NCBI GenBank assembly: GCA_963930775.1
Contig: OZ005698.1
Location: forward strand, 2,610,501-2,674,500
DNA: 64,000 nucleotides
Reading direction: 5' to 3'
DNA from: Cliona cf. orientalis
Taxonomy: Eukaryota > Porifera > Demospongiae > Clionaida > Clionaidae
Of the stretch, positions 25,273 to 40,205 are shown piece by piece. A program made the translations under genes and the position numbers. How positions within the stretch are numbered: position 1 is the first letter of the stretch; each line of letters starts with the position of its first letter. Under the pieces are notes generated by a model. The model made no database searches and was not told the DNA's origin. It saw nothing but the letters and a program-made list of their open reading frames with translations.

Positions 25273-25611
25273 TGTTTAATATCTTGACCGTGATTGGTCA
25301 GTGTAATCAGCAGACTGTTTGCTTTTTCATATTTGAAACTTGAAGAGTTGGAGTAGTAGGTAGCTGGATTCTATCATAATGACAATCTGTACAATAGTTA
25401 GTGTGTCAAGCTGGAACCCTCCTATTATGTGTGGGAGCTACTGGCTATAGCTAGTGAAAAGCTAGTAGCTACAACACAAATTTGGCATACCAGTGCAACT
25501 GTGTTATTGGACTATTGTCAGGGGTAGGGAGTTATAATGCCTGAGGGCTGGGGTATATGAGAGTTATACCATGGCTGTTACCTAGGATACAAGGCTAAGT
25601 CATGATATTAA

Positions 25612-26619
25612 AGTACCATTAAATTGCGTGGGCGTGAGGTGGGGGATATGACACCCAAACCACATCAAAGTCATCAGTGAGGTGCATGTTGTGTAACCAC
25701 ACCCTTTTAATTGCACAGGTCTCAGGGGTGTGGCTGCTAGAGCCGGAAGTGTTCATTTAATATCCTCCATGGACCGGAAGCCGAGCCGGAAGGGAGGGGC
25801 CAGGCCACGCCCAAAACAGCCCCACCCTGTTCCCCAAGGACCACCATTCTCAATCAAGTGCCTACTAACCACCGGATGTCCACCGGAAGCCCACAATCAA
25901 TCCCAATTAAAACACACAGCTTCCTCAAGGCCAAAACACACACAAACACTTGGAGGCCGTTCTGCCACACCGCCCACACAAGAGCTCACCTCATTTCCTG
26001 TGTGGGCGGAGTAACAACACGTCATCGCAACCACATCCGCTTCAAACCATCGTCAGCTTCCGTCCAGCCGTACGGTCCCCTCCATCGCACCGGCGTACAG
26101 TGCCTCATTAACGGACATGGCCTCACCTTTGACCTCCTGCCACGCCCCCAAAGCCTCCTCGCGGGGTTCAAAGGTTACCACCGCTTCCGGGACACGCCCA
26201 CCTATCGCCGAGGCCAAGTCCCAGGCGCCGATATCCAAGCACTGGCCCGTGAAGCCACGCCCAATCGGAAGCAATAAAACCTGCATTAACGCACACGCAC
26301 GCACTCCACACAGTGCCAGGAACACGCCCACATGCTTAATTAGGCCTAATAAGCTTTTTTTTTTTTTTTTTTTAAGTCGTTGCGGTTAATAGTTAAGAAA
26401 GAATGCTTTGATCTTGCTTTGATGTGGGCAATTACCGGCCTTTTCTTCAGGGGCCACTTCCGGTCGCTAATTACACGCGCATAATCATCCCTGGCCGATT
26501 CTGGACACGCCCACCTTCGACCAAAAGCACTCGTATGGCCTCTTCGGCCACGCCCCTTCACGATTCGCTAATTGAATTAGCCATTCCTGATGCTCACGCC
26601 CACGCAATTAAATGGTACC
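25612..26619 (+). mobile_element. 1-kb non-autonomous element, TTAA target site (copy 1)
   Basis: About 1008 bp, bounded by inverted termini (A/G)GTACCATT(T/A)AATTGCGTGG, with TTAA on each side (25608-25611 and 26620-26623), the target preference of piggyBac- and Kolobok-type transposases. GC-rich compared with its surroundings, with many GTGGGCGTG-like boxes and a poly-T run at about 26353. ORFs inside are short, occur on both strands and resemble no transposase. A near-identical inverted copy is at 28042-29039. Confidence 0.8.
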
Positions 26620-26623
26620 TTAA

Positions 26624-28037
26624 TATATATATATTATGGTACGTCGGTCACGCGAAATTATATCCCCAGCATGGCTCTATGGACATAAACGCGAAATATT
26701 CTACTACGCATTCTCATGCCTGACATGGACTTACGGGCCGTACGTATATGTGCCGTTCTAATTTAGCGAATTGCAGATCGTCATCGATCATGCAGCATCG
26801 ATCATCATGAACGAGCCACGGCCACGTGTATAAGTCAGAGAAAAATAAGGCTGCAAACAAGGACAGACTGGGCTCGTCGTCCATCCCAGTCAGCGCGAGG
26901 AGCGGCTAGGAAGGCGATCGAGATAGCTCACTGAGACTGTACAACACAGGCAGCTATCATCGGTGGCTGTCCACTAAGTTGCCAGGGTCAAGTGGCATAA
27001 ACGGTACCTAATTGCCAGACAGAAAGATACCGCTACTTGGGCAGGCACACGGCAACTATGACTCGCATGGTCTGCTTGGATCTGTGTCAGTGCCGGGTCT
27101 ACCGTGCTATGTCTTTAAACTTAGTTCTTGAATTTCCGGTAGCACTCCAGTTCACGCTCGCTCAGGCTCGCCCCAAACAGGCCCTGCAGTCTTATGATCA
27201 GATTACTAGTATGGTATCATTATACTAAGATACATGTAAGAGTTGTCCGTGCGTGCATGCGTACGTCCGGAAAGGTGACCGGAAGCGATTCGACCCGAGC
27301 TAAAACGTTTTATTTCTAGGCATCGCTGGACTTGGGGCGATACAACAGAGAGCCCACTGACACGGCTGGGTATAGCCCCAGCAGCTACTAACGTCAGCTG
27401 CTTCAAAGAAATTAAACGCCAGGGCAGAATTAGACTGAACAGTACCACTTACAATGGCGGCCTGGAGAATGCAAAGGGGTGACACTCTGGAGTCAATATT
27501 GCCCATAGGTGCTGTCCAGAAGGAGGCGATTCTATTCTAAGCGTCTTCTCTTGGGAGCCCTTCAGGCTTGCAAGCGAAGCTGCAAGAAAACTAACGAGTT
27601 TCTTTAGCTAGCTGATTGACAAAGTCACATGATCAGGAAGCATGTGCACGTGCGCGCGCATGCGCAAAATATGTAGGTAAAGGTCGATGGTACATGCATT
27701 ATTAATAATATATAGCACAGAGATTAAGGAGTGAGCGAGCGAAGCGAGCTCACTCCTTGTATATTATGTGCATATAAAGTACTGTAAATGCACATGCACT
27801 GCAAACATGGAAATTGATTCAGCTAAGTGCATGTACGTACTAGTAGTTTATAATAATCGGTCTAATAATAAATGCAATAATATTATTGTCATGAATACTA
27901 AGCTACCTGCAATTCATTCCGTAACTGTTAATTTACAGGAAGTAAACTGATACTGATTAGGCATAAATGGCTGCAATCTCATAGTATAATAATACGCTGT
28001 GGCTAGAGTGCTGGGAACGGCACCCAAAATATAAGGC
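26624..28037. other. Unassigned DNA between two inverted TTAA elements
   Basis: About 1.4 kb. The GC-richer part (26750-27560) has no convincing ORF or RNA. A perfect small palindrome, GGAGTGAGC...GCTCACTCC, lies near 27729-27757. No transposase remnant was recognised. Confidence 0.4.
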
Positions 28038-28041
28038 TTAA

Positions 28042-29039
28042 GGTACCATTTAATTGCGTGGGCGTGAGCGTCAGGAATGGCTAATTCAATTAGCGAATCG
28101 TGAAGGGGCGTGGCCGAAGAGGCCATACGAGTGCTTTTGGTCGAAGGTGGGCGTGTCCAGAATCGGCCAGGGATGATTATGCGCGTGTAATTAGCGACCG
28201 GAAGTGGCCCCTGAAGAAAAGGCCGGTAATTGCCCACATCAAAGCAAGATCAAAGCATTCTTGCTTAACTATTAACCGCAACGACTTTAAAAAAAAGCTA
28301 ATTAGGCCTAATTAAGCATGTGGGCGTGTTCCTGGCACTGTGTGGAGTGTGTGCGTGTGCGTTAATGCAGGTTTTATTGCTTCCGATTGGGCGTGGCTTC
28401 ACGGGCCAGTGCTTGGACATCGGGGCCGGGGACTTGGCTGCGGCGATAGGTGGGCGTGTCCCGGATGCGGTGGTGACCTTTGAACCCGTCCAGGAGGCTT
28501 TGGGGGCGTGGGAGGAGGTCAAAGGTGAGGCCATGTCTGTTAATGAGGCACTGTACGGCGGTGCGATCGAGGGGCCTGTACGGCTGGACGGAAGCTGACG
28601 ATGGTTTGAAGCGGATGTGGTTGCGATGACGTGTTGTTACTCCGCCCACACAGGAAATGAGGTGAGCTCTTGTGTGGGCGGTGTGGCAGAACGGCCTCCA
28701 AGTGTTTGTGTGTGTTTTGGCCTTGAGGAAGCTGTGTGTTTTAATTGGGATTGACTGTGGGCTTCCGGTGGACATCCGGTGGTTAGTAGGCACTTGATTG
28801 AGAATGGTGGTCCTTGGGGAACAGGGTGGGGCTGTTTTGGGCGTGGCCAGGCCCCTCCCTTCCGGCTCGGCTTCCGGTCCATGGAGGATATTAAATGAAC
28901 ACTTCCGGCTCTAGCAGCCACACCCCTGAGACCTGTGCAATTAAAAGGGCGTGGTTACACAACATGCACCTCACTAATGACTTTGATGTGGTTTAGGTGT
29001 CATATCCCCCACCTCACGCCCACGCAATTTAATGGTACC
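28042..29039 (-). mobile_element. 1-kb non-autonomous element, TTAA target site (copy 2, inverted)
   Basis: About 998 bp, reverse complement of 25612-26619 with only scattered differences. Same termini and TTAA on each side (28038-28041 and 29040-29043). The shorter homopolymer at about 28286 explains part of the length difference. Since each copy has its own TTAA pair, these are two insertions rather than the ends of one larger element. Confidence 0.8.
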
Positions 29040-29314
29040 TTAAAGAGCCGGCATAACTCACGTGATCTATAGATCCCAGCTCCCGAAGGGGGCTGGGATC
29101 TATAGGTAGCTAATAATAATAAGAACAAGCTATTACTGACCGATACACGGTAAGTGAGACTAGTAGCTAGCGGGGGGGATTGGGTTTAGGTAATCGGTTG
29201 TTGACGAAGGGTTTGGGTTTCGATGATCGGTTGTTGACAAGCTCGAGGGGTTTGGGTTTCGGTGGCTGATGGCACATTTAGGGGAGTACTGAAATGACGT
29301 CATCATATTAATAT

Positions 29315-30739: not shown

Positions 30740-31290
30740 GGCAGTGAAAGTGTATGATAGTGAGACAGTGGGACAGTATGACAGTGGCACAGTATATAGG
30801 ACAGTGAGACTGTGTGACAGTGGGACAGAAAGACAGTATGACAGTGGGACAGTAGGACAGTGAGACTGTGTGACAGTGGGACAGAAAGACAGTATGACAG
30901 TGGGACAGTAGGACAGTGAGACTGTGTGACAGTGGGACTGTGTGACAGTGGGACAGTAGGACAGTGAGACTGTGGGACAGTGAGACAGTATGACAGTAGG
31001 ACTGGTGGACAGTATAATATTATAAGAGGTGCAGTGGGACATACAGTAAGACAGTAGGACAGTGGGACACTAAGACGGTGTGACAGTATGACAGTGGGAC
31101 AGTATGACAATAAGACAGTATGACAATAGGACAGGGGGACAGTAAGACATGCAGTATGACATTGCCATTTGGGACAGTACGGACAGCCCAATAGCTAGTA
31201 GGACAGGGGGGACAGTAAGACAGTATGACATTAGGATAATATGACAGCCCAATAGTAGGACAGTGGGACACTAAGACAGTAGGAGCAGTA
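30740..31290. repeat. GACAGT-based minisatellite
   Basis: About 550 bp of irregular units of 9-10 bp such as GACAGTGG, GACAGTAG and GACAGTATG. Several apparent ORFs across it are translations of the repeat. It lies in what would be the first intron of the 31381-31653 exon. Confidence 0.9.
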
Positions 31291-31380
31291 AGATGTTCCA
31301 GGGATAATATATATAATATCACAATATTTAAATTTTGTGCCATGGTATCTTTGATGGGATGATTTGTAGGTTGACTTTAC

Positions 31381-31653
31381 CTGTACTGTTACTGCATGTG
31401 GTTTGATATTTTCTTTCTCTATTGTGGAATCTGCATTGGCTGGCTGGTCACACTGTCCCTGGTTAACTACTTGAGACTCCCCTAAAACCTTCTCAGTGTT
31501 CTTTGAAACTCTGCGGCTGGAGCGTGTCCCAAAAGTACTGACAGTGTCCCTTTTGTGGAGCTCAAGGGTATCTTGCAGTTTGCTCTCATCTATAATACCA
31601 TCATAGTAGAGTCCAGCGACAGTGAGGCCCTCTGCCCAGGTGGGAGCCGACAT
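31381..31653 (-). CDS. Solo first exon related to the MULE CXXC-OTU gene
   Basis: The minus-strand exon begins MSAPTWAEGLTVAGLYYDG and ends at a CAG|GTAAAG donor after 91 codons, phase 0. It is clearly related to exon 1 of the MULE gene at 34220-34447 (MSTCKPAWATDLKPVGLHYY): W-A-x-x-L-x-x-x-G-L-x-Y-Y-x-G, then HKxxTxSxFGTRxSxxK/R, then KEN(I/V)xP, with the same donor phase. No downstream exons are seen; the region beyond the donor is minisatellite. No matching terminal repeat was found. It is most likely a remnant of a related element or a truncated host gene. Confidence 0.6.
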
Positions 31654-32235
31654 GATGAAGACAACGCGATCCTGTGCTCAAAAACCAACTTGGCTACAGA
31701 AAACGTGGTGAGCTGGTCAGCTGAGCGGTAGCTAGCGCGTTCACAATTCGCGGTAAAATGTGAACTTTGACCTCGAAGATCACGTGATAGGACATCAAAC
31801 GACGTGAAAGTACTCGATCCCATATCGTTAAAGCCTTGGCCGTATAAGCGCGCTTATCCATGTGACATACATTCAACTTATTCGGTCTTATACTAGGGCG
31901 AATAACGCTCTATACCAGATGTATACCAAAGCTTATACGCGTCGATTGCGCGCGCGCGCATAAATGCAATTACGTAATGCATCCTATGCGGCCGGCCTAC
32001 GCGCGTGCGGTTAGCGAGCTAGCCATGAGGAATGTATATTAACCGCACTAGCGAGCTGTACTGCCAGCGCTATATATACGCACTTGATCAATGGCGTCAC
32101 TACGATATAATCATGTATATATAATATAGCATATAGCCATAAATGGTTAAACGGCCAAAATACACCAAATCAGTTTAAAAAACAACAATAGAATGTCCAG
32201 ATGGCATTTGCTCATCAGATCTGCAGAGTGACATA

Positions 32236-32959: not shown

Positions 32960-33640
32960 TACATGATATGTAGATACCTATAGCAAGAAAAAAAAATGAG
33001 TGACAGCCTGGTAGTCACGTTATCAGCCACTTATAGGGTTAGCCTGGCACACGGTGTTGAAATCTTTACGATCCAACATGAGATACGTACCGGGAATCCT
33101 ATCTGTTGAAAATAAAACTGTACGCTACATATATTATGTAGATACCTGAGCAAGAAATAAACAAGTGACAGTCAGGTATTCACGTTATCAGCCACTTACA
33201 GGGTTAGCCTGGCACACGGTGTTTAAACCCTTACGATCCCACATGAGATACACACCAGGAATCCAATCTGTTGAAAATAAAACTGTACGCTACATATATG
33301 TAGATACCTGAGCAAGAAATAAACGAGTGACAATCTGGTATTCACGTTATCAGCCACTTACATGTGGGGTTAGCCTGGCACACGGTGTTTAAACCTTTAC
33401 GATCCCACATGAGATACGCACCGGGAATCCAGTCTGTTGATAATAAAACTGTACGCTACGTGTATGTAGATACCTGAGCAAGAAATAAACAAGTGACAGT
33501 CTGGTATTCACGTTATCAGCCACTTACAGGGTTAGCCTGGCACGCCGGCGGTGTTTAAATCTCTACGATCCGACATGAGATACGCACCAGGAATCCAATC
33601 TGTTGAAAATAAAACTGTACGCTACGTATACAGTAGTTTC
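32960..33640 (-). repeat. Four tandem ~165-bp units carrying an exon-like segment
   Basis: Four units, with the marker GGTTAGCCTGGCAC recurring at about 33037, 33203, 33370 and 33530. On the minus strand each contains an acceptor-like TTTTCAACAG and an open stretch such as WIPGVYLMWDRKGLNTVCQ, and most end at a GTAAGTGG donor. The open stretch is about 68 nt, so including two copies would break the frame; if real they would be alternatives. Confidence 0.6.
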
Positions 33641-34014: not shown

Positions 34015-34024
34015 GTAGCTATAC
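34015..34024. repeat. MULE target-site duplication, left
   Basis: GTAGCTATAC, identical to 38767-38776. A 10-bp direct repeat immediately outside the terminal inverted repeat; Mutator-like elements make 8-11-bp duplications. Confidence 0.9.
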
Positions 34025-34219
34025 GGGGCTCACTACATTCACACTGTCTGGAGAACGGAAGTCACGTGAAACAATTTCCGTCCTGTCCTCTGCGCAGCTG
34101 CACTGCATGCAGCGTGGCACGCGCACGCGTATGCGCGTATGGCCCGACCACGCCCACGATGCGATCATCGCGCTTTTACGCGGGAGTTCCAATCTCGGGA
34201 GCCAGATAATCAGCTCAGC

Positions 34220-37200
34220 ATGTCGACTTGCAAGCCAGCATGGGCTACAGATCTAAAGCCAGTGGGTCTCCACTACTATGGTGGAGTCGTAGAATGTGGC
34301 GAGGAGATACTCGAGAAGCATAAGATTGCCACTCAATCCTGCTTTGGGACACGGACTTCCTCCAAGAAGAAGACTGTGAGTGGCAGCCACACCGATGCCA
34401 CGGACAAAGAGAATGTAGAGCCTTCAAATATCAAGGAGAGCTCAAAGGTAATTTAGAAACACAAATTTGATAACATATTATTATAGGGAAACTGAATGTG
34501 ATCTACAGATCCACAAAGTATTCTGGCAACAAACAATGGATGGACAAACAGTCGAGTTCGACAATACTCCATTTGTTGTGTCTGAGGTACGGCGATTAGA
34601 TTGCCAATTTGGCAAACACTACTTCAAACAGAAACAAGAGGGGGTCTCTAGTCGTGTTCATCTCCAGGGTACACGCAAAATTGGATGCAAAGCACACATT
34701 GTGGTCCGTTCAATTACGGTGTACAGTGACTTCCAGCTCAGCCAAGATGAAGCAAGCCTGGGACCTAGAAAATTGAAGGAAAAGAAAAAGGAAAAGTTAC
34801 AGGAGCTTTATCAGGTTCTCAACAACAAGAAGCCCATAAATACAAAAGTCATGTATCATATACTTTTGCCAGATGAAGAGGCACACCATGCATTCCATCA
34901 AACCCACGGTGCAGCATCATATGCACAAAGAGTACACCCCAAGTTGATTGAAAAGATCTACGAGTTAGTGTTTGAGGGGATTACGGATGTACAGGAGGTA
35001 AAACGTGCCTTAAAGCATCATGTAACTCATGTTCTGTGTCCAGATATTAAACCTGATCTTACTGACCGTTCATATTATCCCACATCTACCGATGTCCGAA
35101 ACCACATCTACAAGGCCCAACATGCTTGTCAATTATCTAAACTTGATCAAGAAAACCTTCAATTAAAGATAGAGAAATGGAAAAAGGAAAGCCCTGAATC
35201 TTTGTTTCATTTCCGTCCATACAAGGAAGAAGAACTCACCAAAATGGATACCAACATTGATTCTGAGCCTTCCAATGACCAAAATTCCTCTTCTCAGACA
35301 CTCTTGTATGTCCACCAGGAACCATGGCAGCAAGACCTCCTAAAGAGATATGGAAATATAATATCTCTAATGGATGCCACATATAAAACAACCAAGTATG
35401 AGTTGGCACTATTCTTTGTTGCTGTTAAGACAAATGTGGGCTACTCAGTGGCAGCAGAATTTGTTGTGCAATCCGAGACTGCAGAGCAGATAACAGAAGC
35501 ATTGAGAATTCTATCGTCATGGAATCCTGAATGGCATCCCCCTTATTTTATGACCGATTATTCAGAAGCAGAAATGGCTGCTATTTCAGCGGTATTTCCT
35601 AATTGTAAGACCTACCTTTGCGATTTCCACAGGGAACAGTCTTGGGAACGCTGGGTGAAAGATCGCAAACACGGATTAAGTCCTGACGAAGGTGACACTC
35701 TCCTCTCTCTTCTAAGGGACATAGCTCAAGCTCCTTCTCCCACTGACGACAATCTCCCACTTGACCACCACTACCATCAGAGTGTTGACAATCTGAAGAA
35801 AAGTAATATATGGAAGAATTATCATTCAGTTCAAGAATGGCTGGAAGGAAAATGGTTGTGTTCACCGCAGGTAATAATTATATTATTGTGGACATGTACA
35901 TGTATGTTTATATAGAGGTGTACAATCATATATATGTTTACACATAACACACAATTAGTGGGTTGTAGTATGGGTATGTACTAAGATAGTGTATACAATA
36001 TGTACATATATACATGTACATGGATGATGTAACATTGTATTGGGCATCAAAATAATTATTACATTTGGTATAATATACTGCTTCTAGTTTTGGGCAAGAG
36101 CATTTCGAGACAGAGAGTTTCATGCCGCTGTGAACACAAACAATGGAACCGAGTCACTAAACAAACTCTTTAAGTACAGCTATCTACCTCGCAAAAAGTC
36201 TATGACACTATCATCAATTATCACTCTGATCACGGAGACGTTTCTACCAGAAAGTCATCAAAAATATCTGTTTCTTAACTACAAGCAAAGCAGCCAGTAT
36301 CGTTCGTACAAGGATTTTGTCCCGGAATACTTGCATGGAAGACCACGGTCCACCATCTCCCATTGCTTGGAGCGGCGATCCAAATCACTCAAGTACACAG
36401 ATGGCGATGTGCAAGTAGTTGATGATGACCTTGGAACATTTACTGTGAAAGGAACTAGTGGAAAAAACCATGAGGTTTCATTTGCCAGTCCAAGCTGTAC
36501 ATGTCGTGATTGGATTACATTTCATTTGCCCTGTAAACATTTTTTTGGCATCTTTCGTCTACATTCAAAATGGGATTGGAATAGCTTGCCTGAAAGCTAC
36601 AGAAACAGTGCATACCTGACTACAGATCAAGGTGCAATTGAAGATTTCTTCCAACCCCCAGAGGACTTCACGGACGATCAGCTCCAAGAGAGACCAGTCG
36701 AGCCTTCAACTTGCAGCAACACAACTGGTGAATCAAAGATTCCTGAGAGAAAGGTATTAACACAGGTATCAGTAGAGTACAGTACACACTAGTACACGCA
36801 TGTACATGTGTATGTGAGATCACAAGTTATTTTGGATATTTCTACAGACACTTATCCAATCACTCAAACAGGAGGGTGAGCATGCCAGGACTGCTTTGAA
36901 AGTCCTCGAGACTCTAACCTACAGCTGTACCAACCCAAATGATCTACATGAGATTGCAACCAAAGTGGAGGAACTGATTCTAGCATTAAGGAAGAAGCTA
37001 CCGAAGTCTGAAGGCATCATTTTACGACCGGAAGCAAGAAAAGCTGCAAGAAAAAGAGCACAAAAGATCAGCAGAAAGTATCGACCTCTACCATCAAGTG
37101 TTAAGAGAGGTCGTCCTAGAAATGACTGGCGATACCAGAACCGTGTTGGAAAGAAAGCTGATGAACTTAGAAAGGTACTAAACAATAACTCAAATCCCCT

Positions 37201-38542
37201 TTAAACTACATACTATATATTTATACTTGTATAGACGGTACAACAGTTACAGGTAGCAAAAAAGGTACAGGACGACAGAAAGCCACTTCAGCAAATCCAA
37301 ATTAACCCAACAGTCAGTGAGAGTAGGCTTACACATGTGTATAAATCTTCAAAATCACAGCAAAAAGAAAATAGAGGTACATGGAGCATACTCGTACATC
37401 TACGTACAAGTGTACCTTTATAATCCATTCTGCAGAGGTCCATGAGCATTCACAGCCAAAAGTTCAGATAGCTGAAAAGAAAAAAGCGAGCACAGGTAAA
37501 AATTGAGGTATATATGCACTAAGTACAGCTACACATGTACATGTACATGTCAGGGTTGCATTCAGGATTTTATGGGGGGGGGGGGGGGGGGGGGAGTGCA
37601 AATGGCTTTTCCGGGAGGGGAGGGGAAAGGAGTTATGGCCAACTCATAATATTATGTCAAAACCACACTGTGAATCTCAGGGGTGGGCAACCTCCCCCCT
37701 CCCCCCCCCCCCCCCCCCCCCATGTGACACTAGACTTACATGTATGCTCAGTGTATCATTTTAATTATAGGAAGAAAACGAAAAAGATGTGGCCAGTGTG
37801 GTGGATGTAAAACTGAAGACTGTGGTGAATGTCAACACTGTATAGACATGCCCAAATTTGGGGGGCCTGGGAAGCGAAAGAAATGTTGCAAGAAGCGTCA
37901 TTGTGTGAACCCAATTACCATTCCACAGGTAAGGCTGTTCTATTCAGCTGCTGTAATTAGCCACTACTACAATTATTTCAGGGACAAGAACATCAAGTGT
38001 TACATGATAAAGATGGGAGGACTGACATGGTGTCCTTCTTAGCAGCAAATGGAAGACGCTTAGACTCAGCAATGGCAGATGGCAACTGTCTTTTTAGAGC
38101 AGTGTCTAAGCAACTCTGTGGTGACTCAGAACAACATGATAAGCTTCGACAGATCATAACAGACTATGTAGCAGCCAATCCCAAACTTTTCAGTGGGTGG
38201 ACCACGGAAAATCAGTCTATTGAGCAACATGTCAGCAAAATGAGGAACCCAGGGTGTTGGGGAAGCCACCTTGAACTAAAAGCAGTAGCAACAATTTTCC
38301 AAAAGTCAGTGTATGTAGCCACTGACACCCTAGTACATGGACAGTGCAGGTGGATAGTTTTTCCTCCGTTTCCAGACCCATCCTTGCCTGAAACTTTGAA
38401 TTTTAACGTGAACAACAGAAAAAAATGGCTAGAAGTCTCCTACACCAGTGGCTGTCACTATGATGGAATCCTACCAATTCGTTCCGACAAACCTCTAAAC
38501 CCACCAGCACTAACGGGGAGAATAATGAATTTGAAGCTATGA
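34220..38542 (+). CDS. MULE transposase with SWIM, CXXC zinc finger and OTU protease domains
   Basis: Eight GT-AG exons join in phase: 34220-34447, 34509-35870, 36088-36765, 36848-37174, 37235-37376, 37436-37495, 37771-37928 and 37982-38542 (about 1171 aa). An N-terminal zinc-binding-like region contains TRKIGCKAHIVVRS. The Mutator DDE core has LMDATYK (D365), FMTDYSEAEM (D426), CDFHREQSWERW and NNGTESLNK (candidate E552). The SWIM finger is C667-x-C669..C679-x-H681. A basic, coiled region follows (about 757-930). The CXXC finger (C939-C977) has all eight Cys and the KFGG motif (DMPKFGG) of CpG-binding members such as CFP1 and KDM2. The C-terminal OTU domain has DGNC (C1021), a WGSHLEL region and GCHYD (H1144), so the protease looks catalytically complete. 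Known: MULE transposases cut and paste DNA; CXXC-KFGG binds unmethylated CpG; OTU cleaves ubiquitin chains. Inferred: CpG-directed targeting and protection of transposase or chromatin from ubiquitination. Confidence 0.88.
37567..37722 (+). repeat. G and C homopolymer runs in MULE intron 6
   Basis: A G run at about 37576-37594 and a C run at about 37702-37720 lie in the intron just before the CXXC exon, about 108 bp apart; the transcript could fold them into a very stable hairpin. Run lengths may be unreliable in the assembly. Confidence 0.7.
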
Positions 38543-38766
38543 CCAGCGATTGAAACTTACGTATCTTCTGTCTTTTCCATTTGATAATTTGTGTCCTCGT
38601 TCATTGTCCTATCGTGTCCTATGTGTTTACGTGCCCACACGTACACCCCACCCAGCTAGTTAGCAATTATTACTAGATACGTATGCGCGATGGCGCAATC
38701 CGCGGCGCATTGTGGGCGTGGCCGCGTGACTTCCGTTCTCCGAATAGTGTGAATGTAGTGAGCCCC

Positions 38767-38776
38767 GTAGCTATAC
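38767..38776. repeat. MULE target-site duplication, right
   Basis: GTAGCTATAC directly after the right inverted repeat, matching 34015-34024. Confidence 0.9.
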
Positions 38777-39369
38777 AGTGGCTGTATGATCATGTGTGTA
38801 GCATGCTTGTTGTTAATTATTATGCCCCACCCACCTACACAGGAAACTTGCAAGTGTACCAAACCAAGTACGCTTCATGAAAGTTCTCTCCTAGCATGAA
38901 GTTTATTGTCGGAGTTATGTATTATATTCCTTGGTTACATCCATTAGTAGTGATGATAGCGGCAAAATTATGCTAGTTATGACAAAATGTTGTGCTGAAC
39001 ATTCACAATGCATTGTGTAAGGGTAGAGAGAACAAAGTTAACATGTTCAGTTGACAACAGCAGACTCTATTGCTTGTCCGTGGAACAGCAAAATGCTACA
39101 CCAAATATTACCCCCAAATAGCACCCGAGGTCGACGTCAAGGGTGTGCAATCATCCGCCAGTGACATCTATGCATAGGCATCCTGTCGAGTCCTGCAAAA
39201 AGAACATAGTATTTTAAGTGGAGGCCTAGGGTTGTACTTCTTTATTTTTATACTGACTTGCACATAACTAGACACCAAATTATGTGCAACACAGATCCTA
39301 GGGTGTGCTTTATTTTGAATTTATTTACGGAATACTATTACATAATATGAATGTGCCTAGTATTACTAG
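38777..39369. other. Spacer right of the MULE
   Basis: No gene or element recognised. Confidence 0.4.
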
Positions 39370-40205
39370 CACTGTGGTTGGCTGAAACGGGTTTGGACAA
39401 TAATCTTTGAACCTGTGTATGGCTGACTACATGCTGGTAATCATAATATTTCCTAGTACAGTATGGGCAGCGTAGGGTTGATTCATATAAAGTGAGGTGT
39501 GTGAGGGATGTGAATTATAGGTAACGAACTAGCAGTATAATTGGCTGAAACGGGTTTGGACATTATGATAGTCTTTGAACCTGTGTACGGCTGATTACAT
39601 GCTGGTATACGCCTGTAATTTCCTGGTACTGTGTGTGTGTGTTTGATTTCATACTGATATTATAGAGGGTGATTGAACCATAGGTACGTCGTGGCTAGTT
39701 AATTAAATCTAATAATAAGCTTTTATGTTTAACACTAGCACTGTGGTTGGCTGAAACGGGTTTGGACAATAGTCTTTGAACCTGTGTACGGCTGATTACA
39801 TGCTGGTATATGCCTGTAATTTCCTGGTACTGTGTGTGTGTTTGATTTCATACTGATATAGAGGGTAATTGAACCATAGGTACGTCTGACTAGTTAATTA
39901 AATCTAATAATAAGCTTTTATGTTTAGAACTAGCACTGTGGTTGGCTGAAACGGGTTTGGACAATAGTCTTGAACCTGTGTACGGCTGATTACATGCTGG
40001 TATATGCCTGTAATTTCCTGGTACTGTGTGTGTGTTTGATTTCATACTGATATAGAGGGTAATTGAACCATAGGTACGTCTGACTAGTTAATTAAATCTA
40101 ATAATAAGCTTTTATGTTTAGAACTAGCACTGTGGTTGGCTGAAACGGGTTTGGACAATAGTCTTGAACCTGTGTATGGCTGATTACATCATCAGTGCTG
40201 GTAAG
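39370..40205. repeat. Five tandem ~165-205-bp units
   Basis: The marker GGCTGAAACGGGTTTGGACA recurs at about 39379, 39543, 39748, 39943 and 40138. The middle copies are nearly identical over about 195 bp, pointing to recent expansion. Non-coding. Confidence 0.9.

Follow-up and report, generated by a model that had tools for sequence, protein, structure and literature searches.

A Mutator-like transposon of the sponge Cliona cf. orientalis whose predicted transposase carries CXXC and OTU domains and whose ends are CpG-dense

CXXC zinc fingers occur in host proteins that regulate chromatin, and those of MLL, CFP1 and KDM2B bind unmethylated CpG. A finger of this type was found inside a Mutator-like (MULE) transposon of the sponge Cliona cf. 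orientalis, in a stretch of 64,000 nucleotides (nt) at positions 2610501-2674500 of contig C10, the whole of which is called the window below. The finger is of the KFGG type seen in KMT2A/MLL, DNMT1, KDM2 and CXXC1, which differ in being non-mobile host chromatin regulators. Among mobile elements, Mutator-like elements (MULE/MuDR) share with this one the MULE DDE core, the SWIM finger, inverted ends and a target duplication of 8-11 nt; they differ in that the terms CXXC and OTU are absent from the main texts, supplements lying outside this scope, of a survey of 1631 elements (PMC6446971) and of an arthropod survey (PMC13359780). Ginger1 elements resemble it in that their transposase bears OTU or Ulp1 at its C-terminus, depending on the family, but have a Gypsy-integrase-type transposase, and Ulp1 is also carried by Mutator elements; the term CXXC is absent from the portion of that paper covered (PMC2836005). 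An OTU-type domain of putative activity also sits on a DNA transposon in Helentrons and in further elements that carry OTU or VTD deubiquitinase domains, Helentrons differing in their rolling-circle RepHel, and again the covered portion lacks the term CXXC (PMC9741609). VANDAL MULEs and TET/JBP-encoding fungal transposons are comparable in encoding proteins that act on DNA methylation or silencing, and differ in that no transposase-fused CXXC reader is mentioned in the covered portion of the source (PMC12730594). Given the Ginger1 and Mutator precedents, as far as that source was covered, a MULE with a C-terminal protease is a known kind of element.

The element is complete and spans window positions 34025-38766 (4742 nt). 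Repeat search identified inverted arms at 34022-34066 and 38725-38769 (45 nt, 42 of them within the element) that are 93% complementary, and a perfect 10-nt target-site duplication, GTAGCTATAC, flanks the element on both sides. The terminal inverted repeat (TIR) starts with GGGGCTCACTACATTCAC, an end motif common to the family. Inside the TIRs, a gene model of eight exons at 34220-38542 was predicted with GT-AG introns throughout and a stop-free product of 1171 amino acids (aa); this length is set by the splice donor after 36765, and a second in-frame donor after 36753 would yield 1167 aa. The sequence-only reading of this locus had proposed a single spliced frame joining a Mutator-type DDE transposase with SWIM finger, an eight-cysteine CXXC finger with KFGG and a C-terminal OTU domain, and had named profile searches as a check. 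The frame and each of these modules were recovered, within one TIR-bounded element, and MULE, zf-CXXC and OTU exceeded their profile cut-offs; the ALS2CR8 domain, the inverted ends, the duplication and the family had gone unmentioned there. Taken by itself, the architecture (CARF-MULE-SWIM-CXXC-OTU in a single element) is almost certain.

Pfam was run on the predicted 1171-aa protein at curated cut-offs. Domains above cut-off were ALS2CR8 (CARF, PF15299) at aa 75-281 (1.9e-28; 100.4 against 28.9 bits), the ZSWIM1-3 RNaseH-like domain at aa 341-443 (5e-11), MULE (PF10551) at aa 363-450 (6.5e-12; 46.2 against 27.6 bits), zf-CXXC at aa 933-977 (5e-11; 42.9 against 26.5 bits) and OTU (PF02338) at aa 1017-1099 (4.6e-17; 63.1 against 23.3 bits). 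The SWIM match at aa 664-681 scored 17.4 bits, short of its 19.6-bit cut-off, with the C-x-C...C-x-H residues complete. The transposase core was aligned for ten sequences, namely the window, four other genome copies and the database relatives P0001-P0005 described below (P0006 was omitted, its gene model being without part of the core). The SWIM residues C667, C669, C679 and H681 are invariant in all ten, as are D365, D426 and E552, which from knowledge of the MULE family we take to be the DDE catalytic residues, and the C-x2-H insert (C447, H450). Among solved structures, 23 distinct sequences match the CXXC piece, MLL/KMT2A most closely (2e-13), and all eight zinc cysteines are invariant in 7/7 aligned copies; KFGG appears as KYGG in copy F and KFSG in copy C, and the first cysteine of copy L049 is shifted by one residue. 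The OTU exon matches OTUD5, OTUD3 and OTUD1; DGNC is invariant in 5/5 aligned sequences and HYD in all of the four that reach that point. An AlphaFold model of the OTU exon, built from five sequences, mixed helices and strands with a mean pLDDT of 76 and a pTM of 0.78.

The profile-searched genome comprised 216.8 Mb in 149 contigs, and several further copies with family ends were delimited in it. Over 4768 nt, copy A (C1:21.78 Mb) and copy B (C2:2.05 Mb) agree to 97%, and their flanks are unrelated; both contain the CXXC finger and have inverted ends of about 45 nt bordered by the 10-nt duplications GAAATGTGAC and GAAATAAATA. A second pair, C (C11:5.56 Mb) and D (C2:7.31 Mb), agrees to 99% over 5.0 kb, again with unrelated flanks, and contains both CXXC and OTU; the duplication is 9 nt at C, and none was seen at D, which holds two nested inserts. 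In copies E (C17) and F (C1) the inverted ends enclose MULE, CXXC and OTU, the end motif of E departing in three positions from that of the family. Exact 10-nt duplications were present at A, B, E, F, G and N, the last a deletion derivative on C3 in which the transposase N-terminus is joined to the OTU C-terminus between family-type ends. The CXXC finger, or CXXC together with OTU, thus moves inside inverted ends, and the two near-identical pairs imply movement that was probably recent. Coding changes, mostly synonymous when reckoned per site, numbered 14 synonymous and 7 nonsynonymous between A and B (pN/pS, the nonsynonymous-to-synonymous ratio, 0.13) and 10 and 8 between C and D (pN/pS 0.21), both small numbers; within CXXC plus OTU of C and D there were 3 synonymous and 0 nonsynonymous changes, and the compared exons of both pairs contained no stop codons. 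For the window element's own ends, the genome gave a single weak 65-nt match (C3) apart from the element itself.

At two loci, elements lie inside or beside one another. Copy D (L047, C2:7306300-7314500) holds two nested TAGTCTCG elements with 9-nt duplications, one of them in the right inverted end. At C1:15950007-15956055 (L008/L020/L027) two elements adjoin, with end motifs at 15955382-15955399 (-) and 15955411-15955428 (+), 11 nt apart; the gap looks like an insertion at the edge of the other element's duplication.

Linkage of the domains was examined genome-wide, all match counts for profiles and exons being lower bounds. The zf-CXXC profile gave at least 38 matches, the OTU exon at least 38, and the transposase exon at least 95, of which 79 were retained after 16 with identity of 32% or less were dropped. 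Of the 38 CXXC matches, 22 are preceded within 6 kb by a transposase match in the same orientation; such stretches make up 0.06% of the genome. OTU lies downstream within 3 kb of 19/38 CXXC matches; 15/38 have both transposase and OTU, and 26/38 have either. Viewed from the transposase, CXXC is present in 22/39 clusters, and several of the remaining clusters are short fragments. The MULE model gave at least 58 matches, 19 of the CARF family and 39 others: a CXXC match lies within 6 kb of 16/19 CARF-family MULE domains, whereas neither CXXC nor OTU was found within 8 kb of any of the 39 outside it, so the CXXC finger belongs with this MULE lineage in this genome. Chance adjacency of a host CXXC-OTU gene and a transposon was also considered, and is ruled out by the joint mobility and the linkage. 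A further alternative would make the CXXC and OTU exons a cargo gene of their own between the inverted ends, or a transcript of their own. Linker exons 5-6, barely matched among copies, would suit it; the acceptor preceding the CXXC exon, however, has equal phase in 7/8 copies read (the site chosen in L013 differs), the window frame is open through all eight exons, and the 22 copies with transposase upstream on the same strand face 0/38 with one on the opposite strand within 6 kb, making such an arrangement very improbable.

Among the 12 unlinked CXXC matches, the one at C9:9853074 lies just upstream of methylase matches at C9:9855452-9856881 and seems, from this arrangement, to belong to a host DNMT1-like gene. 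A 644-aa open frame with a CXXC finger (L004 928-2862; C11:5743378-5746515) is perhaps an undescribed CXXC gene. The distribution over contigs is uneven: C1, with 37.5 of the 216.8 Mb and 2.5 times the length of C2, holds 25/39 transposase clusters (binomial p 1e-10) and 18/26 linked CXXC matches, raising the question of a repeat-rich or unusual chromosome.

No OTU match was found in 7/22 CXXC copies with transposase, nor downstream of CXXC in copies A, B and G. One of the seven, L049 (C1:34.37 Mb), combines frames for MULE/SWIM and for CXXC with a Ulp1 match above cut-off, and the protease therefore seems exchangeable, being OTU or, in one copy, apparently Ulp1. At C6:8698307-8701164, another MULE has a Ulp1 match 2.3 kb downstream and no CXXC match nearby.

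To place this combination among known proteins, the 1171-aa sequence was compared with 5.8 billion proteins. The search returned six CARF-MULE relatives without annotated CXXC (P0001-P0006) and otherwise CXXC or OTU proteins. These six (Priapulus, Mercenaria, Sycon and three further records) share the ALS2CR8, MULE and ZSWIM core at 31-49% identity and differ in that CXXC is not annotated, the Mercenaria protein ending in Ulp1; because they are gene models or lie on short contigs, a further exon may be missed in them. The CXXC-OTU half, searched against the same 5.8 billion proteins, had as its sole match P0037, a reverse transcriptase/endonuclease with OTU. Since this search depends on five-residue words held in common and on complete gene models, split exons elsewhere can be missed. 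P0037 is of interest in itself in that OTU occurs in retrotransposons too. A MULE with CXXC was found neither among the top-ranked results of a literature search (open-licence papers, with Repbase reports outside) nor among the protein-database matches, in line with the earlier suggestion that these modules had not been described together. The CXXC reader and the CpG-dense ends described below are new as far as the literature and protein searches reach.

The ends of the family were analyzed for CpG content in full copies and in nonautonomous derivatives. With one mismatch allowed, the family end motif GGGATYSACTWWGTTCAC occurs at 141 places in the genome against 4 for a reversed control, and many of the best 100 of these 141 pair at a spacing of 2-3.3 kb. 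About 30 such pairs were visible, of which 20 were picked as derivatives before their flanks were seen, with both ends taken. Seventeen of the 20 have 10-nt duplications, one has 9 nt, one 9 nt with a mismatch and one none; six-frame translation of one interior gave short frames only and, by eye, an apparent CXXC remnant. In the 40 derivative ends the CpG observed/expected ratio (o/e) falls from 1.26 over the outermost 100 nt to 0.16 over the 100 nt that follow. In full copies (21 ends of 13 elements, the window included), CpG o/e is 1.04, 1.34, 1.02 and 0.76 in the first four 50-nt bins, and at 300-600 nt inward it is 0.40, with TpG at 1.29 and CpA at 1.33; the window outside the element is similar to the latter (CpG 0.47, TpG 1.28, CpA 1.31). 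Element ends are at about 1.2 and the CpG-depleted interiors at 0.4-0.5. CpG o/e of the first 150 nt exceeds the interior in 21/21 ends of the 13 elements, a count from which copy D was excluded, one of its ends carrying a nested insert; with D included, 22/23 ends exceed the interior (0-100 nt), the exception being that right end. By end sequence, judged without a tree, the copies fall into roughly ten sublineages, and for this reason the ends are not all independent; the 20 derivatives count as one.

The reading we favor, by a small measure, is that the element is an autonomous-looking MULE of the CARF (ALS2CR8)-MULE lineage whose CXXC finger binds its own unmethylated CpG-dense ends and whose OTU domain acts on ubiquitin there, the end-binding step being what lowers our confidence. 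In such a mechanism the finger would bind unmethylated CpGs in the terminal 100-200 nt of the element, and the transposase would thereby prefer copies with ends that escaped methylation. OTU would deubiquitinate the transposase, or else chromatin at the bound ends, which may prolong or permit the transposition reaction. We infer the binding from the established CXXC biochemistry given above for MLL, CFP1 and KDM2B together with the CpG-dense ends; that density suggests, without proof, that the element senses methylation at its own ends. The earlier proposal that the transposon could recognize either its own CpG-rich termini or host CpG islands accordingly fares differently in its two parts: the 21/21 ends lend independent support to the first, and the second is weighed against insertion sites below. 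A stronger version, in which transposition is conditional on methylation, the CXXC finger recognizing only copies with unmethylated ends and OTU or Ulp1 reversing ubiquitin or SUMO marks as a self-encoded reader-eraser against host silencing, is put forward tentatively and would be somewhat unlikely.

Several points weigh against the favored reading. The 7/22 copies without an OTU match indicate that OTU is dispensable for some members. In the window CXXC, a lysine (KRKKCC) stands where MLL has glutamine before the second-last cysteine; the same lysine occurs in copies F, L007, L013 and L049, and glutamine is kept in E, A/B, G, C/D and L019. This substitution could weaken CpG preference in the copies that have it and is the main sequence-level doubt. 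Host methylation is itself presumed from base composition and methylase genes. End composition was compared with one other family only, a short miniature inverted-repeat transposable element (MITE) whose interior rather than ends is CpG-rich (o/e 0.62 at the ends and 1.0 in the interior); the distant MULE loci L050-L053, considered as inverted-end controls, had no usable ends.

Finally, the terminal CpG density could serve the CARF-type domain or a promoter. The CARF site includes a CpG, which counts for an explanation in which the dense ends are CARF/ALS2CR8 binding sites or bidirectional promoters and the roles of CXXC and OTU are unrelated to them. Long inverted ends of Mutator contain promoters and transposase sites, according to the covered portion of PMC3310237. 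The density is found, though, at either end of the element and throughout the roughly ten sublineages, whose end sequences differ, and a reader of bare CpG fits this better than one fixed motif does; we regard this explanation as unlikely, if the least so of the alternatives to end recognition. Somewhat less probable still is an anti-silencing role, in which CXXC-OTU on the ends would keep DNA methylation away, for instance through deubiquitination of histones, whose ubiquitin attracts Polycomb or the maintenance methylation machinery, and transposition itself would be independent of CXXC-OTU. The ends do retain CpG without the TpG and CpA excess found in the interior, and transposon-encoded counter-measures to methylation are published for VANDAL and TET/JBP elements (PMC12730594, in the portion covered); the abrupt CpG boundary in nonautonomous copies (from 1.39 to 0.22 at 100 nt), on the other hand, may be inherited composition and not protection.

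Insertion sites bear on a different role, in which CXXC mainly picks targets by tethering the transposase to unmethylated CpG islands of the host. At the 20 derivative sites, CpG o/e of the joined flanks is 1.00 over the central 200 nt, compared with 0.62 at a distance of 400-800 nt (paired Wilcoxon p 8e-5) and with the window's 0.47; their mean CpG count was reached by 0/5000 random window draws, the background composition being that of this window only. They also hold more CpG than ten sites of a TTAA-target family, all on C1 (o/e 0.78; one-sided p 0.0007 for CpG counts and 0.04 for o/e). The control MITE, TAGTCTCG, has 2926 ends in the genome (up to two mismatches) and 9-nt duplications at 10/12 sites. 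Its 12 sites are as CpG-rich as those of the CXXC family (o/e 1.10, p 0.59); the flanks of two, L103 and L104, are 81% identical, and without L104 the remaining 11 give 1.14. CpG-rich targets are therefore not special to the CXXC family, and CpG-island targeting as a demonstrated role of CXXC, strong at first, was demoted by this control. Accessible DNA may be unmethylated regardless, and the MITE comparison carries the caveat that its autonomous partner could itself be CpG-guided. Overall, target choice as the main role of the finger is improbable, about on a par with anti-silencing. The possibility that a CXXC-MULE moves the TAGTCTCG MITE was also considered; at the distant MULE loci covered, that end is seen alone (L052) or as a short MITE (L053), and not around the MULE. 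The TTAA-target family, with end GGTACCATTWAATTGCGTGGGCG, has 2198 genome matches and was seen at window 25608-29043, where it is foldback-like, and at several loci.

The features of the window element are collected in Table 1. Outside it, an open frame at window 31231-31677 (-), MSAPTWAEGLTVAGLYYDG..., looks by eye like exon 1 of the element and would be the remains of a relative about 2.3 kb leftward. Tandem repeats, also judged by eye, flank the element at window 32990-33640 and 39340-40200, with units of roughly 170 and 190 nt.

Table 1. Coordinates (window positions) of the features of the MULE transposon and the evidence for each
Feature	Position	Strand	Evidence and remarks
Target-site duplication, left copy GTAGCTATAC	34015..34024		identical 10 nt flanks element on both sides
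Left TIR, first letters GGGGCTCACTACATTCAC	34025..34066	+	repeat search, 93% arms; family end motif
Left end, CpG-dense	34025..34224		20 CpG/200 nt, o/e 1.18
Exon 1, start codon 34220	34220..34447	+	gene model
Exon 2, CARF/ALS2CR8-type domain aa 75-281 (first two residues from exon 1) and MULE RNase H-like core, D365, D426	34509..35870	+	gene model, Pfam, alignment
Exon 3, E552 (third catalytic residue, assumed) and SWIM finger C667, C669, C679, H681	36088..36765	+	gene model, Pfam, alignment
Exon 4, linker rich in lysine/arginine, relatives match to about aa 865	36848..37174	+	gene model, copy comparison
Exon 5, linker, poorly conserved	37235..37376	+	matches end at about aa 865-872 in most copies; copy B to 923
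Exon 6, linker	37436..37495	+	gene model
Exon 7, CXXC zinc finger, eight cysteines and KFGG	37771..37928	+	Pfam zf-CXXC, MLL CXXC structures, alignment
Exon 8, OTU domain (DGNC, WG, CHYD) and stop codon	37982..38542	+	Pfam OTU, OTUD5/OTUD3 match, alignment, AlphaFold
Right end, CpG-dense	38567..38766		16 CpG/200 nt, o/e 1.26
Right TIR	38725..38766	-	repeat search
Target-site duplication, right copy GTAGCTATAC	38767..38776		identical 10 nt flanks element on both sides

The ends of these elements resemble tiny CpG islands, and 22 linked copies carry a CXXC finger with the transposase. The apparent interchange of OTU with Ulp1 behind the finger agrees with the view, raised earlier for Ginger1, that removal of ubiquitin or SUMO is a recurrent need of DNA transposons. 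If the finger reads the ends, a host read-out of DNA methylation would have been co-opted by a transposon to choose which of its copies move, and the question of whether transposons themselves sense host DNA methylation is made testable.

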